Of a DNA stretch of 44,977 nucleotides, positions 25,161 through 28,477 are shown piece after piece. The notes beneath the pieces are model-generated. The model did not search any database. It was not told where the DNA came from and worked only from the letters and a program-made list of their open reading frames with translations. The first letter of the stretch is position 1, and every line of letters starts with the position of its first letter. Source of the stretch: Blastocatellia bacterium (lineage in GTDB: Bacteria > Acidobacteriota > Blastocatellia > UBA7656 > JADIYM01); assembly GCA_021463145.1 (NCBI GenBank), contig JAJTWZ010000035.1, forward strand, positions 1 through 44,977, in the 5' to 3' direction. Both the position numbers and the translations under genes were made by a program.

Positions 25161-26018
25161 ATGGAGGATTTTCGGACCGTGACCATCCGTTCGCTCGTCA
25201 TTCTCGTGGCCGCGCTTGCGCTCGTTCCCGCTTCTGTCTCTGGACAGGCCACCACTCGGTCCCGCCGTGTGCAGGGACAGCCGGCCGCAACTGTCCGGAC
25301 AACAAAGCCCGAGGCCGCGAGTGCCGAGCCGTCTGCGCCGGCCGTTCCAGCCTTCGAGAAGCTGCCCTTTGGACCCGGCGAGACTTTGACCTACGACATC
25401 GCGTGGAATGGATCCACCACGGCGGCGACGATGGTCCTGACCGTTGGAGAGAGATCTGCCGATGGCCTGCCGATCCGGGCGGATGTCGAGACCGTGGGGC
25501 TGACCCGCTTCCTGGCCGCGGTCGACGCCGTCTACACGACCTATGCCAGTCCGAAGACCGTGCTGGGCAATCGTACCGAGTACGAAACCACGTTCAACGG
25601 AAAGAGCCATCGCGGTTCCACGGTTTTCGATCGCAAGAAGAACGTCGCCGTGTCTTCGCAGGCGACGACGCCGATCGGTCCTGAAACGAGCGACGGGCTT
25701 TCGCTCTTCTACCGCCTTCGCGCGTTGCCGCTGAAGTCCGGCGAAGTTCTGACCCTCGACGGTGTCGAAGGACGAAACCGCCGCCAGGTGCGCGCGGTCG
25801 TCGAGGCCCGCGAGTCGATCGCTTCGACCAATGGCTCGATTCCGGCAATCCGGGTGGCATTCATGCCGATCGTCGGCGGCCAGCCAGACGATCGGGATCA
25901 GGTGCGAGTGTGGTACAGCGACGACGTCGCTCGAGTGCCGTTGCTCGTGACCGCCGAACCTGATGTCGGGGCGATTCGCGTTACGCTCAAGAGCGCGAGA
26001 GCGACTCGCACGCGATAG
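25161..26018 (+). CDS. secreted DUF3108 family protein
   Basis: This 285-residue protein has a signal peptide and a DUF3108 domain. The domain hallmarks are GETLTYDIAWNGSTTAATMVL, GLPIRADVETVGLTRFLAAVDAVYTTY with an E-T-V-G-L core, FDRKKNVAV, and DGLSLFYRLRALPL. DUF3108 proteins form an envelope beta-barrel-like fold of unknown function, often as putative outer-membrane-associated proteins. The start is ATG at 25161 or GTG at 25179. GGAGG at 25163-25167 lies inside the first option and 11 bases ahead of the GTG, and the GTG gives a cleaner signal peptide (VTIRSLVILVAALAL). The next 1.7 kb downstream is repeats. Confidence 0.85.
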   Translation: MEDFRTVTIRSLVILVAALALVPASVSGQATTRSRRVQGQPAATVRTTKPEAASAEPSAPAVPAFEKLPFGPGETLTYDIAWNGSTTAATMVLTVGERSADGLPIRADVETVGLTRFLAAVDAVYTTYASPKTVLGNRTEYETTFNGKSHRGSTVFDRKKNVAVSSQATTPIGPETSDGLSLFYRLRALPLKSGEVLTLDGVEGRNRRQVRAVVEARESIASTNGSIPAIRVAFMPIVGGQPDDRDQVRVWYSDDVARVPLLVTAEPDVGAIRVTLKSARATRTR

Positions 26019-26169
26019 GTGCCCCCACGCCAGTGGCGCACCCCTCGTAATGAAGCGGGTATGCGCTCGGGAAGTGCCCCCCGAAGACGGCACCTCGATC
26101 CCTGTCACGAACGCGACCTCGCTTGCGCCACGCCGATCTCGCCGAGGAAGCGTTGGGGGGTTCGTAACA
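26019..26169. other. gene-free left part of the repeat block
   Basis: No credible gene is seen in this stretch, which begins the 1.7-kb gap after the DUF3108 gene. It is GC-rich with short segments related to the inverted arms that follow (GCACCCCTCGTAATGAAGCG resembles the arm at 26190-26211). It probably represents older, eroded repeat copies. Confidence 0.4.
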
Positions 26170-26410
26170 GTTCCCCACGCGCCTGCGGAGCACCCCCTAG
26201 GATGAAACGAGCAGCGTTTCGGGTCCGGGGGTCGTTCTGAAGCGCCGGAGCAACGGTGTTTTCTGTCAACGTGGAAATGCTTCGAGTCTGGCCTTCCGAG
26301 AGGCGAACGGGTCCGCGACCGCGGAGCGGTCGATACAATAGCCGTGGGTCACGCGCGGCGAGCGCAGCGAGCAAGCGCGCGACCCGCGGAACCGCCCGCC
26401 GCGTTGGGCC

Positions 26411-26577
26411 GACCGCGGAGCGGTCGCATTGTCCGTCCCAATGCGCGCCGGTGGCGACGCAAGCGATGTTGTTTCCCGGCAAAGAGGCATCTCTTTCCTG
26501 GCCGAAGATCGAGATTCGTACGGCTCGAGCTGCGAACCCAATGTGACCGCTCCGCGGTCGGCGCGGTTGGGCGGGCC
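26411..26577. repeat. REPIN/MITE-like unit A
   Basis: This 167-base unit begins with the core at 26411-26425 and ends with the inverted core at 26545-26559 plus 18 bases. The two ends form terminal inverted repeats of about 18 bases (GCCGACCGCGGAGCGGTC on both outer sides). The interior includes a perfect AAAGAG-GCAT-CTCTTT hairpin. It is directly followed by a second copy. No transposase is encoded. Confidence 0.85.
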
Positions 26578-26744
26578 GACCGCGGAGCGGTCGCATCGTC
26601 AGTCCCAATGCGCGCCGGTGGCGACGCAATCGACGTTGTGTCCCAGCAAAGAGGTATCTCTCTTCTGGCCAAAGATCGAGATTCGTACGGGTCGAACTGC
26701 GAACCAAACGCGACCGCTCCGCGGTCGGCGCGGCTGGGTACGCG
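26578..26744. repeat. REPIN/MITE-like unit B
   Basis: This is a second copy of unit A in direct tandem, with the same 134-base distance between cores (26578 and 26712) and no insertions or deletions. By eye it differs at about 20 positions. Both terminal cores are unchanged, and most differences fall in the interior. The equal length with scattered substitutions suggests an old duplication, or constraint on the ends. Confidence 0.85.
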
Positions 26745-27000
26745 GTACCGCGGGTCGCGCACCTGCTCGCTGCGCTCGCCCGCGCGCGACCCACGGCTAT
26801 TACATCGACCGCTCCGCGGTCGCGGACTCGCTGGCGCACGACCCAACGGCTGCTACGGAAAACGGCCGTGCGTTGGTGCCTGCACTCCGCCCGTTTCATT
26901 CCAGGGAGGGGGTACTCCGCAGGTGTGTGGGGAACTATTACATCGACCGCTCCGCGGTCGCGGACCATCCTGCCTCTCGAGAGGCCAAAGCTGTAAAGCG

Positions 27001-27225
27001 CCGTAGGCGCGAAAGCAGTAAGGCGCCGTAGGCGCGAAAGCACCGTAGCCCACGGCGCAAGGCGTGGGTATTGCGGCGGAGTTCGGTCAAGCCCCGGAGG
27101 GGCGAAAGAAGAACGCGAACGCGCGACGGCCGTGGCCCTCTTTCGCCCCTAGCGGGGCTTCGATCGATTTCTGCTTGCTGACCCACGGCTTGCGCCGTGG
27201 GCTACGGTGCTTTCGCGCCTACAGG
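27001..27225. repeat. nested inverted repeat, second repeat family
   Basis: Arms of about 43 bases at 27025-27068 and 27181-27224 are inverted with about two mismatches; each contains CCGTAGCCCACGGCGCAAG or its complement. Inside them lies a second inverted pair with AAGCCCCGGAGGGGCGAAAG (near 27089-27108) and its near-complement (near 27140-27160). An extra direct copy of GCGCCGTAGGCGCGAAAGCA starts at 26999. The whole could extrude as a cruciform or fold as a long RNA hairpin. Similar GCCCCGGAGGGGCG and CCCACGG..CCGTGGG motifs occur as dispersed repeats in some Planctomycetes and Acidobacteriota genomes. Confidence 0.85.
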
Positions 27226-27226
27226 A

Positions 27227-27331
27227 CTCCGGAAGAATGCGATGACGACTCGTTCACGGCGCTCCGGAAGAATGCGATGACGACTCGTTCACGGCGCTCC
27301 GGAAGAATGCGATGACGACTCTTTCATGCGG
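27227..27331. repeat. 35-bp tandem repeat, three copies
   Basis: Units beginning CTCCGGAAGAATGCG start at 27227, 27262 and 27297. The first two are identical over 35 bases; the third diverges in its last ten bases (TTTCATGCGG). The array directly abuts the inverted-repeat element to its left. It has no spacers and is not a CRISPR. Confidence 0.9.
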
Positions 27332-27748: not shown

Positions 27749-28477
27749 TCAGCGCCCGCGCATCCGGCGCCTCGCCTCGAAGAGGACGACGCCAACAGTC
27801 ACCGATACGTTCAGCGAGGTAACGGCGCCATACATTGGCACCGCAAGCAGCACGTCGCATCGCTCGCGAACGAGCCGCCGCAGGCCGCGTCCTTCCCCGC
27901 CGAACACAAGGGCTGTAGGTCCGTCGAAGTCGTAGGCCGTGTAGGCCGTATCCGCTCCGCCGTCGAGGCCCGCGACCCACGCACCCGCCTGCTTCAACGT
28001 TTCCATCGCCTGAACAAGATTGGTCACGCGCGCGACCGGAATGTGCTCGAGCGCGCCGGCCGACGTCTTTGCGACGGTTTCGGTCAATCCAACCTGTCCG
28101 CGTGCCGGAACCACCACGCCGGCGGCTCCCGCGCACTCCGCGGTGCGGAGGATTGCGCCCAGGTTGTGCGGATCTTCGACGCCGTCCAGGAGGACCACGA
28201 GCTTGCAATCCGCCATTCGGGCAATCACCGTGTCCAGTTCCGCGTAGGCCGCCGAGCCCACGACGGCCACGACACCCTGGTGGTTCCGAGTGCCGGCCGC
28301 CCTGTCGAGAGCCTCCGAAGGTTGCCGCGCCACCGGGACGCCGGCAGCGCGGGCGGCCTTCACGAGCTCGTCGAACCTGGCGATGCGCACTCCCGTCGCG
28401 ATCGCGATCCGCTCCACCGGGCGCCGCTCGCCTCGAAGGGCTTCGAGCACCGGATTCACGCCGAAGATCACGCTCAT
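27749..28477 (-). CDS. rlmB: 23S rRNA (guanosine-2'-O)-methyltransferase, RlmB type
   Basis: This SpoU-family (SPOUT) methyltransferase probably modifies G2251 (E. coli numbering) in the peptidyl-transferase loop. The 242 residues contain the substrate-binding N-terminal domain (FGVNPVLEAL), then the three SpoU motifs: LLDGVEDPHNLGAILRTAE, LVFGGEGRGLRRLV and VPMYGAVTSLNVSVTVGVVL with the catalytic asparagine. All knot residues are present. It overlaps the preceding lipoprotein gene by four bases, so the two are coupled. RlmB and the TrmH-type tRNA enzymes are close; the N-terminal domain favours RlmB. Confidence 0.93.
   Translation of the reverse strand: MSVIFGVNPVLEALRGERRPVERIAIATGVRIARFDELVKAARAAGVPVARQPSEALDRAAGTRNHQGVVAVVGSAAYAELDTVIARMADCKLVVLLDGVEDPHNLGAILRTAECAGAAGVVVPARGQVGLTETVAKTSAGALEHIPVARVTNLVQAMETLKQAGAWVAGLDGGADTAYTAYDFDGPTALVFGGEGRGLRRLVRERCDVLLAVPMYGAVTSLNVSVTVGVVLFEARRRMRGR

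Follow-up and report, generated by a model that had tools for sequence, protein, structure and literature searches.

In insertion sequences of the IS200/IS605 family, such as IS608 and ISDra2, the subterminal hairpins lie on the same strand and are not inverted relative to each other, and insertion takes place next to a short target motif without duplication. Subclass 1.2 of the TnpA-Y1 proteins, which is found mostly in Cyanobacteria and Bacteroidetes, is listed as 'REP: no' and as generally lacking typical IS200 ends in the available part of a survey of these enzymes (Quentin et al. 2018, PMC6006769). According to the same part of that survey, 20 of the 26 described TIRYTs belong to subclass 2.1 and the other 6 to subclasses 2.2 and 2.5, with none in subclass 1.2 (PMC6006769).

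Here, we describe a repeat element from a Blastocatellia bacterium (GCA_021463145.1, contig JAJTWZ010000035.1), located in a stretch of DNA of 44,977 nucleotides that was analysed as a whole and that we refer to as the window. Most likely, the element derives from a single-strand (Y1 HuH) transposon of subclass 1.2 and is non-autonomous and MITE-like: it lacks tnpA, carries mirrored end modules and is probably mobilised in trans.

Results

The initial annotation of the window had reported two units of 167 bases in direct tandem, each bounded by the same hairpin core in opposite orientation and with equal distances between the cores. This description was accurate, as two copies of 166-167 bp (26406-26571 and 26573-26738) follow each other with a spacing of 167 and an identity of 90%, the inner 17-bp cores return in inverted orientation with inverted arms of 23-38 bp, and the distance between cores, measured from start to start, is 134 bp in both copies. 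The interior differences, put at about 20, came to about 15-17 when counted, and from core to core (152 bp) the copies are 90.1% identical. The hairpin core is a 17-mer with a 7-bp stem and a GGA loop, and its exact sequence was found 162 + 144 times (306 occurrences) in the 5.28-Mb genome, compared to 0 + 0 times for a reversed control, thus its recurrence is not due to chance. The proposed genome-wide search for the unit also returned many copies, since the 171-bp unit gave 66 matches, which represent 18 distinct interior units after removal of repeats. When the literature was searched by sequence string, the matches listed (15 of 282) were unrelated papers.

Identity among the family copies averages 90.3% and ranges roughly from 85 to 96%, and because of this divergence the family may be old and inactive. 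A recent local tandem duplication of the unit was ruled out, since the mutual identity of the two copies (90.1%) compares with the family mean of 90.3%, and both resemble one copy from another contig more closely (94.4 and 93.7%). Recombination between two elements is the probable origin of the doubled interior.

Further cores, which the initial annotation had overlooked, are located outside the tandem pair at 26316, 26806 and 26944, therefore the pair sits within a larger mirrored structure. With arrowheads for the orientation of the cores and numbers for the distances between them, the grammar of this element is >94>134<33>134<95<. Each end module (about 94 bp) is composed of, in this order, a short outer hairpin core, an (A)TAG-tagged long hairpin, a linker and a short inner hairpin core. 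The features are as follows:

26316..26332, plus strand: type A outer hairpin core at the left end, a 17-mer; copy conservation drops just outside it
26338..26389, plus strand: ATAG-tagged long hairpin (CCGTGGGTC.../...GACCCGCGG) at the left end, from sequence, fold and the alignment of 57 copies (99.1% of cells paired)
26410..26426, plus strand: left inner hairpin core, a 17-mer core, at which interior unit 1 begins
26410..26561, plus strand: interior unit 1 (134-bp class, core to core), from repeat comparison
26577..26727, plus strand: interior unit 2 (134-bp class), which a short linker sets apart from unit 1, from repeat comparison
26711..26727, minus strand: right inner hairpin core, a 17-mer core
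26748..26800, minus strand: long hairpin at the right end with CTAT, the mirror image of ATAG, from sequence and module alignment
26806..26822, minus strand: type A outer hairpin core at the right end, a 17-mer
26944..26960, minus strand: second outer core, at a distance of 138 bp to the right, after which comes the usual flank of the element class, from the core and repeat comparison
26314..26824, no strand: whole mirrored element, which folds as single-stranded DNA into one long hairpin
26168..26985, no strand: full extent of the sequence around the element that is repeated elsewhere in the genome, from genome repeat comparison

In support of the initial annotation, the element lies between genes. 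A plus-strand gene (DUF3108) ends at 26018 and a minus-strand gene starts near 28477. Codon-position GC periodicity stops at 26018 and returns near 27750, where the long open frame is on the minus strand, so that the element probably sits between convergent genes.

To describe the family in the genome of the window (G000), a survey set of 59 non-redundant stretches (128,925 bases) was used. The grammar >94>X<95< recurs across these stretches, with an X of 71, 90 or 134, or with tnpA in this place (542, 629). Two subfamilies of end modules, A and B, have the inner core in common and differ in the outer core and the long hairpin. Two A ends are present in the window element and in the other complete single-unit 134-bp element (N003), and the two tnpA genes of this genome, on contigs C119 and C128, are flanked by A modules and by B modules, respectively. 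The complete 71/90-bp elements, on the other hand, all have one A and one B end (7/7), and this difference from the A/A and B/B arrangement of the tnpA genes counts against our reading, in that the elements may be moved by either enzyme.

Seventy sides of 40 inner core pairs were readable, and an outer core was found 86-101 bp away in 45/70 and a TAGCC tag in 43/70; the 25/70 sides that lack the outer core likewise count against our reading. Copy conservation falls toward background just outside the outer hairpin in three genomes (end sequences: G304, n=28; G290, n=34; G000, n=54 for A and n=26 for B), with the limit at about 1-5 bases outside this hairpin, where G290 is T-rich. Weaker similarity persists further out in the A and B sets of G000, which in the case of the A set fits the longer flanks common to the 134-bp class. 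The 167-bp unit had thus been wrongly taken for the mobile unit, and the tandem pair is the doubled interior of a larger element, since the outer core is present on most readable sides and conservation stops at the outer and not at the inner hairpin.

Contig ends are no more than a few hundred bases away from many of the cores listed for G000. The assembly is thus probably broken by these repeats, which would make the copy numbers lower bounds. Other repeats are found around the element as well. A further inverted flank (AGTTCCCCACG...) lies outside of it at 26168-26220 and 26880-26940, and was found in about 15-25 of the 59 stretches. It is also present on the left side of the C119 tnpA element, and may represent either an outer module or a repeat of its own. 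A second repeat at 27000-27225 has the same three-hairpin mirrored grammar with another sequence (outer GCGCC-GTA-GGCGC, tag GTAGCCCACGG, inner GCCCC-GGA-GGGGC), is covered by matches in up to 10-11 of the 59 stretches, and has no known tnpA of its own. At 27227-27326 there is a 35-bp unit in 2.9 tandem copies with 98% matches.

The three helices of the end module are supported by 57 modules (38 A, 19 B), in which 99.1% of the cells are paired, compared to a mean of 94.7% and a maximum of 95.8% in shuffles. Two-sided pair changes amounted to 6, and because the best of 300 shuffles also reached 6, the covariation is modest, and mostly reflects the difference between A and B. Folded as single-stranded DNA, the whole element (26314-26824) reached -225 kcal/mol (z = -17.8), and 0/100 shuffles were as low; a single end module is not unusual for its composition (z = -1.13).

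The genes on C119 and C128 are the only two Y1_Tnp genes in the whole genome, and both are located on contigs other than that of the window. The earlier remark that no transposase is nearby therefore holds for Y1 enzymes within the window, and the search that had been suggested, for a transposase gene with the same ends, led to these Y1 HuH tnpA genes, which are flanked by the same modules. At C119 (L063), the mirrored cores are at 2023+, 2119+, 2142+, 2165+ and 2260+ before the gene and at 2802- and 2896- after it, and at C128 (L064) they are at 1939+ and 2031+ before, and at 2660-, 2752- and 2878- after the gene. The left modules of C119 and the window are 94% identical. Since the tnpA genes sit between the same mirrored modules, in the place that is occupied in the window by the non-coding 134-bp interior in two copies, the window element looks like a tnpA-less derivative.

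That the interior is an internal deletion product of tnpA was considered and rejected, as visual comparison with the flanks and ends of the two tnpA genes revealed no clear similarity. Beyond these two genes, no tnpA remnants were found by tblastn over the 59 stretches. Three cores that are spaced 23 bp apart beside the C119 tnpA (L063:2119-2181) form a tandem of bare hairpins.

The C119 and C128 TnpA proteins have a length of 148-151 aa and are 51% identical. Both passed the IS200/IS605 TnpA model NF033573 (62.2 and 63.5 bits, cut-off 55) and matched PF01797 (84.3 and 88.8 bits, cut-off 23), and they scored below the cut-off of 80 of the RAYT model NF047646 (17.6 and 27.0 bits). Their motifs, ENHVH/EDHMH (HuH), WQ and Y-x3-Q-x2-HH, are the signature of subclass 1.2 as given in the available part of PMC6006769.

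These data bear on the comparison with REPINs that was made in the initial annotation. If the locus were a classical REPIN, the inner inverted hairpin pair alone would be the unit and a RAYT would mobilise it. The inverted hairpin pairs with their variable spacer, the high copy number, the position between genes and the presence of the same hairpins beside a transposase gene are all in line with this. However, conservation extends to the outer hairpin, the window has an ATAG foot in place of the canonical GTAG (5' GT[AG]G), and the enzyme is a single-domain Y1 HuH protein for which a RAYT assignment is ruled out by the NCBIfam score and by Y-x3-Q-x2-HH in place of Y-x3-NP. A classical REPIN is therefore unlikely; what stands of this comparison are the hairpin ends and a presumed mobilisation in trans, and what falls are the unit, its boundaries and the enzyme family. 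By enzyme and tag the element is not a REPIN, and 'REPIN-like' is a fair term for how it may work.

Whether mirrored ends recur around related genes was examined with a four-protein alignment as query, which gave matches in 71/297 genomes of the same phylum. The 103 loci yielded a set of 92 distinct proteins, of which two were reassigned by motif. The flanks were scored by the inverted similarity of the 300 bp on either side, with a threshold of 45, the 99th percentile of swapped flanks among subclass-1.2 genes. Scores above 45 were obtained for 57/75 subclass-1.2 genes, for 0/13 subclass-1.1 genes and for 0/4 unclassed genes, although these loci are not independent trials, because they are related and partly hand-picked. 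The published description of subclass 1.2 as without REP-like ends thus does not apply to these 57/75 sampled genes, and the other 18/75 had no mirrored flanks at this threshold. An earlier test with 400-bp flanks placed 20/30 above its 99th percentile and 25/30 above its 95th. The longest hairpin started at a [TAC]AGC foot in 36/55 arms (TAGC 24, AAGC 6, CAGC 6), and in some of the remaining arms a tagged hairpin is present that is not the longest. A branch with 100/99 support separates subclass 1.2 from the other sequences in a tree of 88 proteins, and MAGs named as Acidobacteriota and as Verrucomicrobiota are found on the subclass-1.2 side.

Mirrored pairs of the local module without tnpA were present in 3/3 other genomes tested, with 18/18 loci away from tnpA in G304 (an Acidobacteria gp4 MAG), at least 12 in G290 and 2 in G011. 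Two other arrangements were observed. In G006, from the same order as G000, six tandem copies of a 76-78 bp repeat (L097:3060-3500) consist of a tagged hairpin and the core of the window or a one-base variant of it. In G011 (L169:1480-1745), the left flank of an element is nearly the reverse complement of its right flank, which is perhaps an inverted duplication or an assembly artefact.

For the window's own element, no empty site was found among the genomes compared, of which the nearest to G000 belong to the same order and another family. Presence and absence could be compared for one related tnpA element. This element, from G282, is about 667 bp long (L268:2168-2834) and lies between two genes. 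We searched 14 other genomes for this site and read 12/14 junctions. In G125 and G199, 3 bp separate these two genes at the position of the element, so it is precisely absent in 2/14 related genomes. Both empty junctions, at this one site, read CT followed by ATTT. Cleavage at CT is described for TnpA_REP in the available text of PMC8266576. G244, from another genus, carries a related tnpA element at this site, G008 has 90 bp and the others have longer stretches, and the length of the stretch varies greatly among related genomes, as at an insertion hot spot. The presence/absence is precise, and may reflect insertion, excision or a hot spot. Given the different inserts in most of the remaining genomes and the related tnpA element of G244, insertions may be frequent at this site, or the element may have been lost from G125 and G199.

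If the hairpins were transcription terminators or mRNA stabilisers that the host maintains, and had spread through gene conversion and recombination instead of transposition, this would suit a position between convergent genes, and the occurrence of mosaic arrays and larger conserved flanks. Yet this leaves unexplained why several lineages have a transposase gene bracketed by the modules and why presence and absence alternate at a 3-bp junction, which makes this explanation very improbable. A MITE of a DDE transposase with terminal inverted repeats would have long inverted ends too, but we give it hardly any credence, as the matching ends are found around Y1 tnpA genes, both here and in other genomes, and visual inspection of the listed elements showed no consistent target duplication.

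Discussion

A tnpA-less derivative of a subclass-1.2 transposon could be mobilised in the following way. TnpA from C119 or C128 would be supplied in trans, and would bind the tagged hairpins while the element is single-stranded, for example during replication. The HuH/Tyr centre could then cut next to the outer hairpin, for which the TAG foot may serve as guide, and the segment between the mirrored ends would be moved or copied.

On balance, we slightly favour a wider view, in which single-strand transposons with mirrored three-hairpin ends form a wide class that has TnpA-Y1 subclass 1.2 as its transposase and whose non-autonomous copies make up a large share of the intergenic palindromic repeats in several bacterial phyla. 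REPIN-like elements would thus have arisen in the IS200 branch as well as in the RAYT branch. The family described here shows that there are REPIN-like repeat families without a RAYT. We found no paper in the open-access literature that assigns REP or inverted ends to subclass 1.2, and the elements described here offer candidates for the substrate, the end structure and the mobile nature of an enzyme subclass for which the literature found reports none of these. IS200-type enzymes normally act on same-strand hairpins, and how such an enzyme reads mirrored single-strand ends can be tested here in a natural case.

Compared to IS200/IS605 elements, the enzyme is similar in that it passes NF033573 and that the nearest solved structures by sequence, at a weak match, are IS200-type transposases. 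The ends differ, as they are mirror images here, and no such mirror was found in the flanks of the 13 subclass-1.1 genes. With REPtrons and the REPIN-RAYT system, as described in the available parts of PMC8266576 and PMC6006769, the element shares tagged hairpins, a mirrored arrangement and non-autonomous copies that are probably served in trans, whereas theirs is a class 2 enzyme with Y-x3-NP and a GTAG foot, and here we find a class 1 enzyme, an (A)TAG foot and three hairpins per end. The short protein (148-151 aa), WQ, Y-x3-Q-x2-HH, HuH and the few diverged copies per genome (2 here) agree with subclass 1.2 as far as this is covered in the available survey text, from which our findings differ by mirrored three-hairpin ends, also in a Verrucomicrobiota MAG, and by many tnpA-less copies, including in an Acidobacteria MAG. 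Within the published material available to us, the nearest architecture is that of the TIRtrons (TIRYTs), in which a Y1 gene is enclosed by long inverted repeats that are in some cases double palindromes, and whose genomes also contain repeat families (Di Nocera et al. 2013, PMC3733652); the enzyme described here differs from theirs by having the motifs of subclass 1.2 and not those of 2.1, 2.2 or 2.5.
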